Shown here: piece after piece, positions 44,084 to 49,510 of the stretch
Numbering within the stretch: the first letter of the stretch is position 1
How the letters are laid out: each line of letters starts with the position of its first letter
From: Acidimicrobiales bacterium
Lineage (GTDB): Bacteria; Actinomycetota; Acidimicrobiia; Acidimicrobiales; Acidimicrobilacustridaceae
DNA: 64,000 bases
NCBI GenBank assembly: GCA_025455885.1
Contig: JALOLR010000001.1
Location: 133,441 to 197,440, forward strand
Direction of reading: 5' to 3'
The notes under the pieces: generated by a model
What the model saw: only the letters and a program-made list of their open reading frames with translations
Databases searched by the model: none
What the model was told of the DNA's origin: nothing
Made by a program: the position numbers and the translations under genes

Positions 44084-46387
44084 TCACTGGCCGGTGGCGA
44101 GCAGCGTGTTCACGCGGTCCGAGGTCCGGTTGGTCGTCGCCAGCGCCTCGTCGAGGGCCCGAACCGTGTCGATCGACTCGGCGTCGGCGGGGATGACGAC
44201 GACGGCGACGCCGTGGTCGGCGCCGGGGTCGTTGCGCAGCAGCACCAGGTGGCCGAAGCTCGCCGGCACGTCGATGGCCCGCCCCCGTCCGATGCGCATC
44301 CAGGGGACGGCGGTCACGGATCCGTGGGCGCTGGTCACCTCGACGGACGTCTCCGCGAACGGGTTGAGGGTGGCGCGGCGGGTCACCTCGAGTCCGTGCG
44401 GGAGGTCGTAGTGGTTGCGGTTCCCGACGAGCGGTGAGGCGTCGTCGGGGTCGAGCGGTTCGGCGAGGGACAGCGCGCCGTCGCGGGCGGTGAGCGCCAC
44501 CGTGGCGACGCGACGGCCCCGCGGGTCGGGGAGGCGGCGGTTGAGGTTGACCAGCACCAGGAGCAGCACCACCGGCAGGAGCGCCGAGAGCACCACGAGC
44601 ACGACGGTGATGAGCGCCGTGGTCGAGGCGTCGGCGGCCTTGGTGGCCGTGAGGGCGGGGAAGGCGACCTCGCCGGTCCCCGGGAGGGCCTGCCCGTCGG
44701 TCGCCCCGGCCGGCCGGTAGCTCGCCGTGAACTCGAGCGCGACCTCCACCGGTGCGTTGCGCTGGCCGTCGACGGTCAGCACCGCATCGACGGCGAAGGT
44801 GTCGTCGTCGGGGCCGCAGGCCTGGTCGGTCGACAACGTCAGGGCCACGCCGGGGGTCGGGATCGTCGGGGTGGCGAACGTGACGCACACGGTCCCTCCG
44901 GTGGCCGCGGTCGGGACGACGACGAGGCGACCGGGGAACGACCCGGCCCCCTCGAGGGTGTCGGGGCCCTCCCAGACCACCTCGGGCAGGGGTGGTGTGT
45001 CGCCGAGGGCGACGGAGATCGACGCGGTGGCCAGGTCGCCCCATCCGGGCGTGGAGGCCGTCACGACGACGTCCGGGGGCGCCACGATCGGGCCGGCCAG
45101 CCGGACCTGCCAGGTTCCCGTGGCGGCCTGCCACTCCACCGCGGCGGGCGCGCCGTCGACGAGTGCTGCGACCGCGACAGCGTCGGGGCCCAGGCCGCCG
45201 GCGGCGTCGGCCGCGGCCCCGCCCCGCACGGTGACCCCGACGAGACCCGACGGTGCCCCCTCGACGACGGTCGCCTCGCCCGACGGGGTGATCACTGCCG
45301 AGAGATCGGCGTAGCAGCCCGTCAGCCGGCCGTCGCCGGCGGCCGCGGTCACCAGTCCCGGCGTCGGGGCGTCAGCGGGAGCGGTGTAGGACGCGAAGCC
45401 GGTACCCGAGGCCACCTCGGTCCCGTCGCGCAGAATCGTGACGGTGGTGCCGGGCGCCCCGCGGGCGCTCGCCGCCTCGACCAGGGGGCTCGGGTAGCCG
45501 GCGGACAGCGCTGCGCAGTCGACGGGGAGGCGGCCGAGGGCGATCTGGCCCTGGGTGAAGAACTCGTCGGCGAGCACGGCCGCCCGCCCCGCCTCCACCC
45601 GCTCCCCGGGGACCCGGCAGGGGTCGGTCCCGTCGCCGCCGAGCAGTCGGGCCACGACCCGATCCGTGTTGGCCCGTTCGGCCTGTTCGGCGGGCGACTC
45701 GCCGGCGGCGTCGCGGAAGTCGACGAGTTGGACGACGAACCCGACCGAGAGGATCCGGGCGCTCAGCGGCTCGGCCAGGCGGCTGGGGGGCGGGAGGGCT
45801 CCGCACACCTGGCCCTCGAACTCGGCCTCGATCTCGTCGGACCGGGTGGAGGACGTGTAGGAGGCGATGCCCGGCGCCGCGGGGTCGTCGATGCTGTAGG
45901 CCCCGTCGGTGAACCACACGAGCCGCTTGCACGTGGTCGGCACGCCGGCTCTCGCCGCGAAGTGGTCGGCGGCGGCCTGCAGCGCGAGGACGTAGTCGGT
46001 GTTGCGGGCCTCGGTGCGGGTGGTGAACGACTGCACGAGGTCGACCGCGGAGGTGGTCTCGGCCGGGAGCGTCGCGGAACCGACGTCGCTCACCCCGGAC
46101 CCGAAGGCTGCGATCGTGAGGTCCACCGTCCCCCCGGCGGCCTCGGCGGAGGCGGCGAGGCTGCGGACGAGCACGTCGGCGGCCTCCACCCTCCGGTTCT
46201 GCGGGTCGGTGGTGCGCAGGCTGGCCGACTCGTCCATGAGCAGGAGGACGTCGAGGGTTCCGCACTCGGCGTCGGTGCCGCCGGGGGAGGGCTGGGCGCC
46301 GGTCGTCGCCGCAGGTCCGAGGGCGATCCCGGCGAGGAGCATCGCGGCCAGGATCGCGGCGGCTCTCCCCCGTCGGCCGGTCCTCAT
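44084..46387 (-). CDS. Exported von Willebrand factor A domain protein with C-terminal membrane anchor
   Basis: A 767-residue protein. Signal peptide about 1-31, then a VWA domain (about 45-235) whose metal-ion-dependent adhesion site begins DESAS (Asp52, Ser54, Ser56). Ig-like extracytoplasmic beta domains follow (about 290-560) with two Cys pairs. One membrane helix (about 590-615) leads to a cytoplasmic domain of about 150 residues. VWA domains bind protein partners through a divalent cation. ATG at 46387 overlaps the stop of the preceding small membrane protein gene. Three co-directional genes (46749 to 43800) form an operon. A role in cell-surface assembly or sensing is inference. Confidence 0.75.
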   Translation of the reverse strand: MRTGRRGRAAAILAAMLLAGIALGPAATTGAQPSPGGTDAECGTLDVLLLMDESASLRTTDPQNRRVEAADVLVRSLAASAEAAGGTVDLTIAAFGSGVSDVGSATLPAETTSAVDLVQSFTTRTEARNTDYVLALQAAADHFAARAGVPTTCKRLVWFTDGAYSIDDPAAPGIASYTSSTRSDEIEAEFEGQVCGALPPPSRLAEPLSARILSVGFVVQLVDFRDAAGESPAEQAERANTDRVVARLLGGDGTDPCRVPGERVEAGRAAVLADEFFTQGQIALGRLPVDCAALSAGYPSPLVEAASARGAPGTTVTILRDGTEVASGTGFASYTAPADAPTPGLVTAAAGDGRLTGCYADLSAVITPSGEATVVEGAPSGLVGVTVRGGAAADAAGGLGPDAVAVAALVDGAPAAVEWQAATGTWQVRLAGPIVAPPDVVVTASTPGWGDLATASISVALGDTPPLPEVVWEGPDTLEGAGSFPGRLVVVPTAATGGTVCVTFATPTIPTPGVALTLSTDQACGPDDDTFAVDAVLTVDGQRNAPVEVALEFTASYRPAGATDGQALPGTGEVAFPALTATKAADASTTALITVVLVVLSALLPVVLLLVLVNLNRRLPDPRGRRVATVALTARDGALSLAEPLDPDDASPLVGNRNHYDLPHGLEVTRRATLNPFAETSVEVTSAHGSVTAVPWMRIGRGRAIDVPASFGHLVLLRNDPGADHGVAVVVIPADAESIDTVRALDEALATTNRTSDRVNTLLATGQ

Positions 46388-46749
46388 CGGCGGGCCAGGG
46401 CCAGGGCGACCAGGAACGCGCCGACGGAGCCGATGAGCCACCCGGTGACGGCCAGGACCACGGCCACCGTTCGGGGCCGCCACGTCGCGTCGACGTAGTG
46501 GCCCGTCGCCCGTCGGATGGCGTCGAGCGAGCCGAACCAGGCGAACACGACGAGCCCCACGACGGCGCCCACGACCCAGGCGAGCACGGCGACAGGGGCG
46601 ATCTCGTCGGTGTCGCCGGCACCCTCGACGAACGCGCCGGCCACCATCGCCGCGGCCGCCACGGTGGTGATGCCCAGCATCACCACGGGGATCACGGGGG
46701 GGCCGACGGCGTCGGGGGCCGTGTCGTCGGTCGGGTCCACGTCCGGCAT
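46384..46749 (-). CDS. Small membrane protein upstream of the VWA gene
   Basis: A 121-residue protein with three hydrophobic helices (about residues 18-42, 50-70 and 93-117) and an acidic N-terminal tail. Not recognised. The stop overlaps the VWA start (ATGA), so it is translationally coupled and likely a partner of the VWA protein, perhaps helping it anchor. The gene diverges from the YkgJ-like gene. Confidence 0.6.
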   Translation of the reverse strand: MPDVDPTDDTAPDAVGPPVIPVVMLGITTVAAAAMVAGAFVEGAGDTDEIAPVAVLAWVVGAVVGLVVFAWFGSLDAIRRATGHYVDATWRPRTVAVVLAVTGWLIGSVGAFLVALALARR

Positions 46750-46796
46750 CTTCGCCCGGAAGTACCCCCGCCGTCGATGGGGCGAACCGCCCGTTC

Positions 46797-47270
46797 GTGC
46801 CCCGAGCGGCCGGTCCGCGCGAACCTGGGGCCGTGGAGGAGCGGACGGGCGCCCCGGGATCCAGCGACGGCGTCGGGCCGACCGGGTCGACCTCGGTCTG
46901 CATCGGGTGCGGCCTGTGCTGCGACGGCACCGTCGTCGGCCATCTGGCGGTGCGTGATCCGAGCGACCTCGGTGCCCCGTTGGCGGCGTTGGGCGTGGAG
47001 ATGATCGTCGAGGCCGACCCGCCGGTCTTCGCGCTGCCCTGCCCGGCGCTGGCCGACGGGACGTGCACCGTGCACGACCTGCACCGGCCCCACGCCTGCA
47101 GCCAGTTCGAGTGCTCGTTGTCGGCCGCGGTCCGCGACGGTGAGGTCCCGGCGGGCGACGCCCGGGCCGTGATCGCCGAGACCCGGGCCCGCCTGGCCGG
47201 CACCGGCGGGGATCGACCCGTCCCCGCCGAGGTGCAGGCCCTCGTGGAACGCCACTTCCTGCCCCGCTGA
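46797..47270 (+). CDS. YkgJ-family cysteine cluster protein
   Basis: A 157-residue protein with the zinc/iron-chelating signature CIGCGLCCDG (about residues 35-44) and later Cys residues in LPCPALADGTCTVHDLHRPHACSQFEC, eight or so in all, as in YkgJ/Fe-S-oxidoreductase-like proteins. The metal and function are not established. The start is uncertain: GTG at 46797 gives a Pro/Arg-rich leader of 12 residues, while the GTG at 46833 gives a shorter and more typical protein. Not in an operon with the MBL-LOG fusion gene, which has its own -10 box. Confidence 0.72.
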   Translation: MPRAAGPREPGAVEERTGAPGSSDGVGPTGSTSVCIGCGLCCDGTVVGHLAVRDPSDLGAPLAALGVEMIVEADPPVFALPCPALADGTCTVHDLHRPHACSQFECSLSAAVRDGEVPAGDARAVIAETRARLAGTGGDRPVPAEVQALVERHFLPR

Positions 47271-47293
47271 CCCGCCGGGGGCGGCGACGTCCC

Positions 47294-47299
47294 TACGAT
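47294..47299 (+). promoter_or_regulatory. -10 box of the MBL-LOG fusion gene (leaderless)
   Basis: TACGAT ends 6 nt before the ATG at 47306. Confidence 0.55.
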
Positions 47300-47305
47300 G
47301 CAGCC

Positions 47306-49510
47306 ATGGCCGGCACTGCGGGGGCGGGGGAGCACGTGCCGGTGCTCACGTTCCTCGGGGCGACGGGCACCGTCACGGGGAGCCGGTTCCTCGTCGACAC
47401 CGCCGACGCCCGGGTCCTGGTCGACTGCGGTCTGTACCAGGGCCTGAAGGACCTCCGGTTGCGGAACTGGGCGCCGTTCCCCGTCGACCCGGCCTCGCTC
47501 GACGCCGTGGTGCTGACCCACGCGCACGTCGACCACTCCGGTGCCATCCCCCGCCTCGTGCGGGAGGGCTTCACGGGTCCGATCGTCGCCAGCCCGCACA
47601 CGGTCGCCCTGGCTTCGATCGTGCTGCCCGACAGCGGGCACCTCCAGGAGGAGGAGGCCGCCTACGCCAACCGCCGCGGCTTCTCCAAGCACCATCCGGC
47701 CCTCCCGCTGTACACCGAGGAGGACGCCCGGCGCAGCCTCGGGCAGTTCGTCGCCGCCGGCTGGGGCGAGGCCGTCGAGGTGGCGCCCGGCGTCCGGGTG
47801 ACCCTCTCCCCGGCCGGGCACATCCTCGGGTCGTCGGTGGTGGCGATGGACGTGGCCGGCGACGGGGGACGGCGGCTGGTGTTCAGCGGTGACCTGGGGC
47901 GGGGCCACCACCCGGTGCTGGCCCCGCCGGCGCCGGTCGGCCCGGCCGACGTCGTGGTGATGGAGTCGACCTACGGCGATCGCCGCCACGACGACGCCGG
48001 TGCCCTCGAGGTGTTCGCCGACGTGATCACGCGGACCGCCGCCCGTGGGGGCGTGGTGGTGATCCCGGCGTTCGCGGTCGACCGCACCGAGGTGGTGCTG
48101 GTGCACCTCGAGGCGATGCGGCGGGCCGGCGTCATCCCCGAGCTGCCGGTGTTCGTGGACAGCCCGATGGCGCTCGCCGCGCTCGACGTGTACCGCACGG
48201 CCATCGAGGCGGGGAGCCCCGAGATCCGCCCGGAGGTGCGCTCGGCCACCGACCCGTTCGGGCTCGACCACGTGCGGGCGATGCGCGAGGTCGAGGAGTC
48301 GATGGAGCTCGACCGGCTCACCACCCCGGCGATCGTGGTGTCGGCGTCGGGCATGGCCACCGGGGGCCGGGTCCTGCACCACCTGCGCCGCTACCTGCCG
48401 GACCGGCGCGCGTCGGTGGTGCTCGTCGGGTTCCAGGCCGAGCAGACGCGGGGTCGTCGCCTCGCCGAGGGGGCCCGCCAGGTGAAGCTCCTCGGCGACT
48501 ACGTGCCGGTGGCGGCCGAGGTGGTGGAGCTGCCGGCGTTCTCGGTGCACGCCGACCGTGACGAGCTCGTCGACTGGCTGGGCACGGTCGACGGCGAGCC
48601 GGACGCGGTGTACCTGGTGCACGGGGAGCCGTCGTCGTCGGCGGCGCTGCGAGCCCGCATCGAGGCCCGGTTGGGCTGGCGGGCCGTCGTGCCGGCCTTC
48701 GAGGAGCGGGTGCGGGTGGACCGCCGGCCCGATGCCCGTCCCGGGGTGGGACCGGCCGGCGACGGTGTGGCCGCCCCCCGGTCCCCGGCGCACGCCACCG
48801 GCCCGGTGCTCGCCGGCGAGATGACCCTCGACCAGGCGCTCCTCGCAGGGCCTGCGCCGGGACCGTCGGGGTTGGTGGGCGACGACCCGGCCCGACTGGC
48901 GCGGATGGACACCGAGATGGCCAACGGCTTCCGCGCGCTGGCCGGCATCGGCCGGGCCGTCTCGGTCTTCGGTTCGGCCCGCACGTCGCCCGACAGCCCC
49001 GAGTACGACCTCGCCCGCCGCACCGCCTCGCTCCTCGGCGGCCACGGCTACACGATCATCAGCGGCGGCGGCCCGGGCACCATGGAGGCGGCCAACCGGG
49101 GGGCACGCGACGTCGGGGCGCTGTCGGTCGGCCTGGGGATCGAGTTGCCCGTCGAGCAGGCCATCAACCCGTTCGTCGACCTGGCCGTGGAGTTCCAGCA
49201 CTTCTTCGTGCGCAAGGTCATGTTCGTGCGCTACGCGTCGGCGTTCGTGGTGTTCCCCGGTGGTTTCGGCACCCTCGACGAGCTGTTCGAGGCGCTCTCG
49301 CTGATCCAGACCGGGAAGATCGAGGACTTCCCGGTGGTCCTCGTGGGGTCCGGGCACTGGGGCGGGCTGCTCGACTGGATGCGCGACGCCCTCGTCGACC
49401 GGGGGAGGTTGGCGCCCCACGAGCTCGACCTCGTGCACGTCGTCGACGAGCCCGAGGAGGTGCTCGCCGTCGTCGAGATGGCCGGCGGTGGGCGGTTCAG
49501 CGCGACGTGA
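47306..49510 (+). CDS. Fusion of beta-CASP MBL nuclease and LOG-family phosphoribohydrolase-like domain
   Basis: A 734-residue single reading frame joining two unrelated domains. Residues 1-470: MBL/beta-CASP RNA nuclease (CPSF/Ysh1 type) with THAHVDHSG (His72, His74, Asp76, His77), FSGDLGRG, the ESTYGDR motif, VSASGMATGGR and the C-terminal FSVHADRDE and LVHGE. After a Pro/Gly-rich linker (about 485-530), residues 535-734 form a TIGR00730/LOG Rossmann domain with SVFGSART, SGGGPGTMEAANRGA and the catalytic PGGFGTLDE (about 651-659). LOG enzymes release nucleobases from nucleoside monophosphates; beta-CASP enzymes cut RNA. An internal ATG at 48907 could restart the LOG part. No stop or disturbed codon use marks the junction. 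Confidence 0.88.
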   Translation: MAGTAGAGEHVPVLTFLGATGTVTGSRFLVDTADARVLVDCGLYQGLKDLRLRNWAPFPVDPASLDAVVLTHAHVDHSGAIPRLVREGFTGPIVASPHTVALASIVLPDSGHLQEEEAAYANRRGFSKHHPALPLYTEEDARRSLGQFVAAGWGEAVEVAPGVRVTLSPAGHILGSSVVAMDVAGDGGRRLVFSGDLGRGHHPVLAPPAPVGPADVVVMESTYGDRRHDDAGALEVFADVITRTAARGGVVVIPAFAVDRTEVVLVHLEAMRRAGVIPELPVFVDSPMALAALDVYRTAIEAGSPEIRPEVRSATDPFGLDHVRAMREVEESMELDRLTTPAIVVSASGMATGGRVLHHLRRYLPDRRASVVLVGFQAEQTRGRRLAEGARQVKLLGDYVPVAAEVVELPAFSVHADRDELVDWLGTVDGEPDAVYLVHGEPSSSAALRARIEARLGWRAVVPAFEERVRVDRRPDARPGVGPAGDGVAAPRSPAHATGPVLAGEMTLDQALLAGPAPGPSGLVGDDPARLARMDTEMANGFRALAGIGRAVSVFGSARTSPDSPEYDLARRTASLLGGHGYTIISGGGPGTMEAANRGARDVGALSVGLGIELPVEQAINPFVDLAVEFQHFFVRKVMFVRYASAFVVFPGGFGTLDELFEALSLIQTGKIEDFPVVLVGSGHWGGLLDWMRDALVDRGRLAPHELDLVHVVDEPEEVLAVVEMAGGGRFSAT

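Follow-up and report, generated by a model that had tools for sequence, protein, structure and literature searches.

A fused ribonuclease and phosphoribohydrolase gene

The stretch of DNA analysed here (the window) comprises 64,000 nucleotides (nt) from the genome of an Acidimicrobiales bacterium. Positions 47306-49510 of its forward strand hold a single reading frame that runs from ATG to TGA over 734 residues without interruption, and that joins a beta-CASP ribonuclease (RNase) of the metallo-beta-lactamase (MBL) type to a type-II LOG phosphoribohydrolase. A first-pass annotation made from the sequence had described one frame with both domains at exactly this place, and the frame and domains were recovered here. 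The features of the gene are as follows.

47306..49510, + strand: fused beta-CASP RNase and type-II LOG gene, 734 amino acids (aa) plus stop (frame, Pfam, NCBIfam, AlphaFold2)
47339..48718, + strand: MBL, beta-CASP and RMMBL ribonuclease part, residues 12-471 (Pfam, alignment A1, structure comparison)
48734..48907, + strand: predicted disordered stretch, residues 477-534, made up of a Pro/Ala/Gly-rich linker and the N-terminal tail of the type-II LOG (AlphaFold2, sequence)
48821..48823, + strand: in-frame ATG (M506), the likeliest internal start if a separate LOG is also made (by-eye reading)
48881..49495, + strand: type-II LOG (TIGR00730) fold, residues 526-730, with R636 and PGGFGTLDE (Pfam, NCBIfam, alignment, structure comparison)
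47294..47299, + strand: TACGAT, a TANNNT-like -10 box 6 nt 5' of the start codon (sequence reading)

The AlphaFold2 model of the 734-aa protein has two confident domains, with a mean predicted local distance difference test score (pLDDT) of 86.0 and a predicted template modelling score (pTM) of 0.69. Confidence is low in the disordered region at residues 477-534 and in a short dip at 613-617 within the LOG part. Since both halves exceed curated family cut-offs and fold confidently, the possibility that the fusion is a mechanical artefact of open reading frame (ORF) calling was rejected.

Within the RNase half, Lactamase_B_2 (residues 36-227), Beta-Casp (264-386) and RMMBL (400-463) all score above their curated Pfam cut-offs. 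MBL motifs 1-4 (HAHVDH occupies residues 72-77) and beta-CASP motifs A, B and C are all present, and motif C is a His, the mark of the RNA type. Residues were assigned by the beta-CASP motif scheme in PMC3095777 (this and the other papers cited by PMC number are drawn on for the portions available). In alignment A1, which sets the window protein beside 53 relatives (54 rows), D40, H72, H74, D76, H77, H172, D196, E220, H415 and H439 are each at least 90% conserved; Pfam and this alignment thus support the full beta-CASP nuclease with all of its zinc residues that the earlier annotation had read. Compared by VIA-align, the half matches six entries for TTHA0252 with Z scores of 49.1-50.0 at 2.0-2.1 Å over 426 residues, the best of them being its closest solved structure. 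TTHA0252 of Thermus thermophilus (PDB 2dkf) shares the whole MBL/beta-CASP/RMMBL fold, 38% identity over 426 residues and all metal and motif residues, but it stops after the RNase part, at 431 residues, and has no LOG domain. By its motifs and modelled fold, then, the first half is a complete putative ribonuclease of the TTHA0252 type. Archaeal aCPSF1/FttA and the type VII CRISPR protein Cas14 have the same beta-CASP nuclease core, but the window protein falls under both NCBIfam cut-offs (TIGR03675, 287.9 bits against 580.2; NF045584, 368.1 bits against 800), and the aCPSF1 match begins only at profile position 177, past the N-terminal part of aCPSF1. The RNase J model TIGR00649 gives 17.2 bits against a cut-off of 400.

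Turning to the second half, Pfam Lysine_decarbox (the old name of the LOG family) matches residues 593-721 above its curated cut-off, and TIGR00730 matches residues 551-724 with 138.7 bits against 96.35. PGGFGTLDE occupies residues 651-659, as expected of the complete LOG domain already noted in the first pass; R636 and E659, whose roles were assigned by motif, are invariant among 12 aligned LOGs. The closest solved structure by VIA-align is the type-II LOG 5zi9 of S. coelicolor (Z score 28.5, 3.1 Å, 205 residues; 55% identity over 205 residues), and the best solved relatives are type-II LOGs. The LOG part starts earlier than the core motifs, and the type-II fold is matched together with its extended N-terminal region. 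Because the solved type-II LOGs align by sequence back to residue 498, it seems that the LOG gene was joined in full, together with its tail. The S. coelicolor protein, Cg1261 of C. glutamicum (5wq3) and Tt1465 of T. thermophilus (1wek) share with the window LOG the fold, the PGGxGTxxE motif, the Arg and Glu residues and the N-terminal extension; they are stand-alone proteins, whereas the window LOG forms the C-terminal half of an RNase. Family score, motifs and modelled fold together identify this half as a complete predicted type-II LOG phosphoribohydrolase. The window genome also carries a second LOG (L003; G000:C5:98873-102238), 39% identical to the fused one and just downstream of a radical-SAM protein that we take to resemble menaquinone (futalosine) or F420 enzymes.

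Around the gene, the TACGAT box may mark the start of a leaderless transcript, as is seen in actinobacteria. A long antisense frame overlapping the gene (44084-49438, - strand) was taken as a by-product of high G+C content, because the homology sits on the + strand frame. Just upstream of the fusion, at 46797-47270, lies a gene for a small Cys-rich protein without a Pfam match at 1e-4, presumably resembling a YkgJ-type zinc/iron cluster protein.

Recurrence of the fusion and of gene adjacency

The same architecture occurs in other public genomes. A scan of genome contigs kept the best 80 of at least 572 confirmed loci, in a ranking that gives preference to records holding both parts; 13 of the 80 have a LOG in the fetched DNA (six fused, four in tandem as separate genes and three with the LOG on the opposite strand), a fraction that, for this reason, is not a rate. 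Reading of the DNA gave single open fused frames in L034, L038, L039, L040 and L091, which are planctomycetes by title, and in L036. The L036 contig is titled Gammaproteobacteria while its fused protein falls within the planctomycete fused clade of both trees described below; it may represent either a misbinned contig or a transfer. Separate tandem genes are found in L035, L037, L051 and L111, and a LOG on the other strand in L054 (about 1 kilobase (kb) apart), L109 and L113. A sample of 248 genomes was drawn from the class to which G421, the source of L040, belongs; with four candidates scored per genome, 11 matched the G421 fused protein at E ≤1e-120. Three of the matches are full-length and stop-free (G421, G544 and G619) and eight comprise the RNase alone; about 1.1 kb downstream of one of the eight, in G507, lies a LOG. 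With G544 and G619 added to the six fused loci of the scan, eight planctomycete-type fusions were found. The earlier statement that no enzyme with this pairing has been described therefore stands for the literature but not for public genomes: a search of the open-access literature, a scope that leaves most subscription journals outside, found nothing on an RNase/LOG pairing. Both enzymes were already known, and it is the architecture and its recurrence that are new. This recurrence lifts the fusion above a curiosity.

Phylogenetic trees were used to follow the fused and the paired states, with beta-CASP rows below 380 aa, LOG rows below 150 aa, rows with internal stops and duplicates dropped beforehand, so that the beta-CASP proteins of G409 and G017 are missing. 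The label 'alone' includes loci with short flanks, and 'paired' includes opposite-strand neighbours and L054. In the beta-CASP tree, built with FastTree from 116 rows, the fused label needs three changes, all of them forced by starred branches, and the paired label needs nine, eight of them forced. G619 accounts for one of the three fused changes, grouping with the unfused L104 (titled Verrucomicrobiales) rather than with the remaining planctomycete fusions. The LOG tree (55 rows, quick search) needs two changes of the fused label, one of them forced: the window LOG lies among the LOGs of its own order (support 88, unstarred), and a starred clade unites the fused LOGs of planctomycetes, including that of G619. 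At least two distant groups of LOG are paired with the RNase, one being the window type and its kin and the other a longer type found in Hoeflea, Advenella, Sulfitobacter, L054, G017 and G507. Judged from these trees, the fusion appears to have arisen independently in planctomycete-type genomes; with so many open forks and with rows omitted, the number of origins should not be taken as exact.

Nearer to the window, 37 genomes of its family and 397 sampled genomes of its order were compared, the latter with the two best candidates scored per genome at E ≤1e-70. Nine family members besides the window genome have a beta-CASP relative at 43-67% identity; in none of the nine does a stop-free frame run on from RNase to LOG, and the LOG relatives found are separate matches. 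Across the order, 41 genomes match, and only the match of the window genome covers residues 1-734. Conservation of the fusion across the order thus finds no sign (0 of 396 other genomes), and from its restriction to one of 397 sampled genomes the fusion would seem young and local there. One match, in G375, extends stop-free to residue 512 but runs into a different C-terminal region, and was rejected as a fusion of the present kind. In the frame concerned (L138; G375:C236, holding 1229-2581), the beta-CASP protein continues past the RNase into this other region, possibly as a different beta-CASP fusion, with what looks to us like a SnoaL/NTF2-type domain.

Separate RNase and LOG genes are also neighbours in the order. 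Six other LOG places are nearest to the window LOG (58-64% identity, five genomes), and two of them adjoin a beta-CASP gene. The two genes stand in tandem with the LOG first in G124 and are convergent in G409, and in G017 a LOG of a different type follows the RNase in tandem. None of 19 further LOGs of the order, at 44-57% identity, adjoins a beta-CASP gene in the DNA fetched, several contigs being short. At the G409 locus (L132:5813-8259), a gene for a DEAD-box helicase with a DbpA RNA-binding domain directly precedes the LOG, whose predicted start lies within a few bases of it, and the beta-CASP gene is convergent.

Over all the genomes covered, separate neighbours occur in Actinomycetota, Chloroflexota, Bacteroidota, Pseudomonadota and one planctomycete. 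Among 61 genomes from the order that includes G423 (source of L035 and titled Dehalococcoidales; Chloroflexota), 14 hold both genes at E ≤1e-40, and the genes are neighbours in nine of the 14, in three arrangements (eight of 13 without the centre genome), this being a count over related genomes. Six loci from this order were fetched: four have both genes as separate frames (L188, L189, L192 and L193), and two showed the LOG alone under the motif filter. Frames of 711-717 aa in this order had resembled fusions because the frame listing reads through stops; reading of the DNA gave separate tandem genes in L035, L188 and L189. In Sphingobacteriaceae (the family of G428, 61 genomes), adjacency was found only in the centre genome G428 among the matches listed. 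Annotated pairs also occur on plasmids of Aureibacter, Hoeflea and Sulfitobacter, the last with the LOG first. On the Hoeflea plasmid (L115:9372-12204) the beta-CASP gene and the LOG gene share 4 bp, and a gene for a TetR-family regulator overlaps just before them.

Neighbouring genes and pathway hints

In some genomes, the surrounding genes encode enzymes that could handle the expected products. G124 carries, on one strand and in a row, genes for the LOG, the beta-CASP protein, a type-II glyceraldehyde-3-phosphate dehydrogenase (GAPDH), a phosphoketolase and a HAD/GH65 protein. Genes for AMP (adenosine monophosphate) phosphorylase-family proteins and for phosphoribosyl pyrophosphate (PRPP) synthetase lie near the beta-CASP gene in ten of the 80 best loci, all in Proteobacteria, as listed here.

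beta-CASP gene near AMP phosphorylase-family and PRPP synthetase genes: L046, L048, L052, L060, L064, L066, L067, L068, L077 and L079

No LOG was found in the fetched DNA of any of the ten. The family assignment was checked by NCBIfam in two of the ten loci and by tblastn in the remainder; the two proteins tested score above the PRK04350 and TIGR02645 cut-offs and just below that of TIGR03327 (AMP_phos). These clusters resemble the window gene in placing a beta-CASP RNase near a family of base-removing nucleotide enzymes, but their genes are separate. The chemistry also differs, since the AMP phosphorylase route proceeds by phosphorolysis to ribose bisphosphate whereas LOG hydrolysis yields ribose 5-phosphate.

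A phosphoketolase-like gene is found near the beta-CASP gene in seven of the 80 best loci (L044, L047, L048, L052, L077, L079 and L089). One of the seven was checked by NCBIfam, where it falls under the phosphoketolase cut-offs, and the remainder were assigned by tblastn, the one in L079 being a fragment cut off where its contig ends. L044 has an acetate kinase gene as well as the phosphoketolase-like gene. Genes for acetate kinase, acetate-CoA ligase and pyruvate dehydrogenase lie within 10 kb of the Sulfitobacter pair. The planctomycete fusions do not appear to belong to a nucleotide operon, judging from the two loci annotated, where the neighbours are as follows: a cation ATPase, an ion channel and a CNNM protein at L091, and a universal stress protein gene at L039. 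A further parallel is the archaeal pentose bisphosphate pathway, which likewise routes the ribose of nucleosides and nucleotides into central carbon metabolism; it is archaeal and uses other enzymes, and the available text names no RNase (PMC9700705).

Proposed function and alternatives

The window protein may be a bifunctional RNA-salvage enzyme that converts RNA to 5'-nucleoside monophosphates (5'-NMPs) and these to base and ribose 5-phosphate, a proposal to which we give an even chance. The N-terminal beta-CASP domain would degrade single-stranded RNA to 5'-mononucleotides, in keeping with the reported 5'-3' exo-RNase activity of TTHA0252, which probably makes internal cuts as well (PMC4229858). 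The C-terminal type-II LOG domain, held on a flexible linker, would then hydrolyse the N-glycosidic bond of the NMP to release free base and ribose 5-phosphate, which would re-enter pentose phosphate or PRPP metabolism. With the domains in line, the product of the first would be the substrate of the second. We infer that a single chain is made, that each domain is active, that the one supplies NMPs to the other, and that the purpose is recovery of ribose and base. The proposal draws on two complete domains with intact catalytic residues, the recurrent fusion, the recurrent adjacency and the product-handling neighbours in some genomes. Alternative nucleotide-splitting partners and downstream sugar-phosphate enzymes suggest that salvage fits better than a purely regulatory or a cytokinin reading. 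The first-pass suggestion that RNA decay is coupled to nucleotide salvage or removal is thus, given independent fusion and repeated adjacency, the best reading, with the activity itself still a deduction.

Several observations weigh against this proposal. The nearest relatives have the RNase without an adjoining LOG in the DNA fetched, and 67 of the 80 best loci show no LOG there in spite of a ranking that favours pairs (some contigs being short). Among plasmid records, only two of 307 for the window query and three of 298 for the planctomycete fusion contain a single place that accounts for 80% or more of the query. The annotated neighbours of the window gene (a VWA protein, an APH-family kinase, a DUF7065 protein and, farther away, an AMP-binding enzyme) are unrelated to the fusion and uninformative on function. 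A search of the window genome found no phosphoketolase, leaving a phosphoketolase route in that organism itself unsupported, and no AMP phosphorylase-family match above cut-off. Digestion to NMPs by the beta-CASP domain alone is unproven because TTHA0252 left short RNAs undegraded (PMC3095777). Cleavage of AMP by type-II LOGs took long incubation, and the available part of the same paper, in naming type-II LOG gene neighbours (DapE, dihydropteroate synthase and others), mentions no RNase (PMC5379747). Finally, a base error at the junction may have removed a stop between two tandem genes; such an error is possible but is not required, because the same architecture stands in open frames elsewhere.

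It is accordingly worth asking whether the fusion exists in the living cell, or whether tandem genes were joined by a base or assembly error, or a LOG is made from the internal start M506. We regard this as unlikely. The relatives found within the order have separate genes, G124 and G017 carry RNase and LOG as separate tandem neighbours, and the stop would be expected within residues 477-534. On the other hand, the linker (residues 471-505) keeps codon phase, with a G+C content by codon position of 0.94/0.71/0.89 and a log-likelihood ratio for codon use of +3.5 against a letter-shuffle mean of -13.7; one of 2000 shuffles scored as high. The test shows phase and not strand, because the reverse strand in the same phase gives +4.8. 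M506 has no clear Shine-Dalgarno sequence upstream in a by-eye reading, and eight other genomes have the architecture in open frames. The first-pass annotation had doubted a missed-frame joining on account of the clean linker: the codon phase agrees, but it does not tell the strands apart, and a base error is possible. It had also held that separate genes in close relatives together with a base error would overturn the fusion; the relatives' homologues are indeed separate, but the architecture recurs elsewhere. The ATG at 48907 that it offered as an internal start is not in frame, the in-frame ATGs lying at 48821 (M506), 48905 (M534) and 48917 (M538).

If the fusion is real, its role may differ from bulk salvage. 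The best placed of the alternatives, though still improbable, is that the RNase releases 5'-NMPs carrying modifications, for example O6-methyl-GMP (guanosine monophosphate) or N6-prenylated AMP from tRNA. The LOG would then cleave off the modified base, whether to prevent its entry into nucleotide pools or as a step towards a cytokinin-like compound. In favour of this, type-II LOGs have been characterised as activating cytokinins and as possibly accepting modified AMP (PMC5379747), the type-II-like LOG BP1253 is reported to give 6-O-methylguanine as a product and to bind AMP, GMP and CMP (cytidine monophosphate) (PMC6864091), and most bacteria are said to form only tRNA-bound cytokinins (PMC8234997). 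Yet the window LOG reaches only 71.8 bits against the cut-off of 300 of the cytokinin LOG equivalog NF058542, the beta-CASP relative MTH1203 left tRNA undegraded (PMC3095777), and bulk pentose phosphate is what the neighbours suggest, with GAPDH and phosphoketolase in G124 and with genes for the AMP phosphorylase family and PRPP synthetase next to relatives that lack a LOG. A regulatory role, in which the LOG turns over little substrate and mainly binds a nucleotide (an NMP or an alarmone), thereby controlling how active the RNase is or how it assembles, seems quite unlikely. Regulation by alarmones is discussed for PpnN, a related nucleosidase (PMC6717881), and since type-II LOGs are hexamers (PMC5379747), the domain could cluster the fused RNase; the invariance of R636 and E659 and a score of 35.6 bits against 450 for the PpnN model NF038390 speak against it. 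A defence system pairing an RNase effector with a LOG-type nucleotide sensor is very improbable, even though SLOG-type domains occur in defence systems such as Thoeris (PMC7272460) and the beta-CASP domain is distantly like Cas14. The window protein has no PADLOC match at E ≤0.01, the planctomycete fusion has two weak partial matches (E 0.0008 and 0.0017), and the annotated neighbours include no recognised defence system, the SNF2-type helicase gene some 3 kb from the G017 pair notwithstanding; with PADLOC unsupportive, a defence role is disfavoured.

Returning to salvage, a broader and more tentative proposal, which we do not count as probable, is that the fusion belongs to an undescribed, widely scattered RNA-to-ribose-phosphate module built on the TTHA0252-type beta-CASP RNase. 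Its second step could be interchangeably a LOG phosphoribohydrolase or an AMP phosphorylase-type enzyme, and the two steps would have been fused at least twice, in an actinobacterial lineage and in planctomycetes, so that nucleotides lose their base on the same molecule and pass to PRPP synthesis or phosphoketolase.

Little is known of what either TTHA0252-type RNases or type-II LOGs do physiologically in bacteria, and PMC5379747 asks for work on the roles of cytokinins and their analogues in bacterial cells. Fusion here, independent fusion elsewhere and repeated adjacency tie the two enzymes together and give a concrete, cheap test. If one protein turns RNA into base and ribose 5-phosphate, RNA turnover would be linked directly to carbon and purine salvage, and LOG and AMP phosphorylase would be expected to serve as alternatives for the second step of a single route; were the module to prove true, type-II LOGs would gain a housekeeping role apart from cytokinin production.

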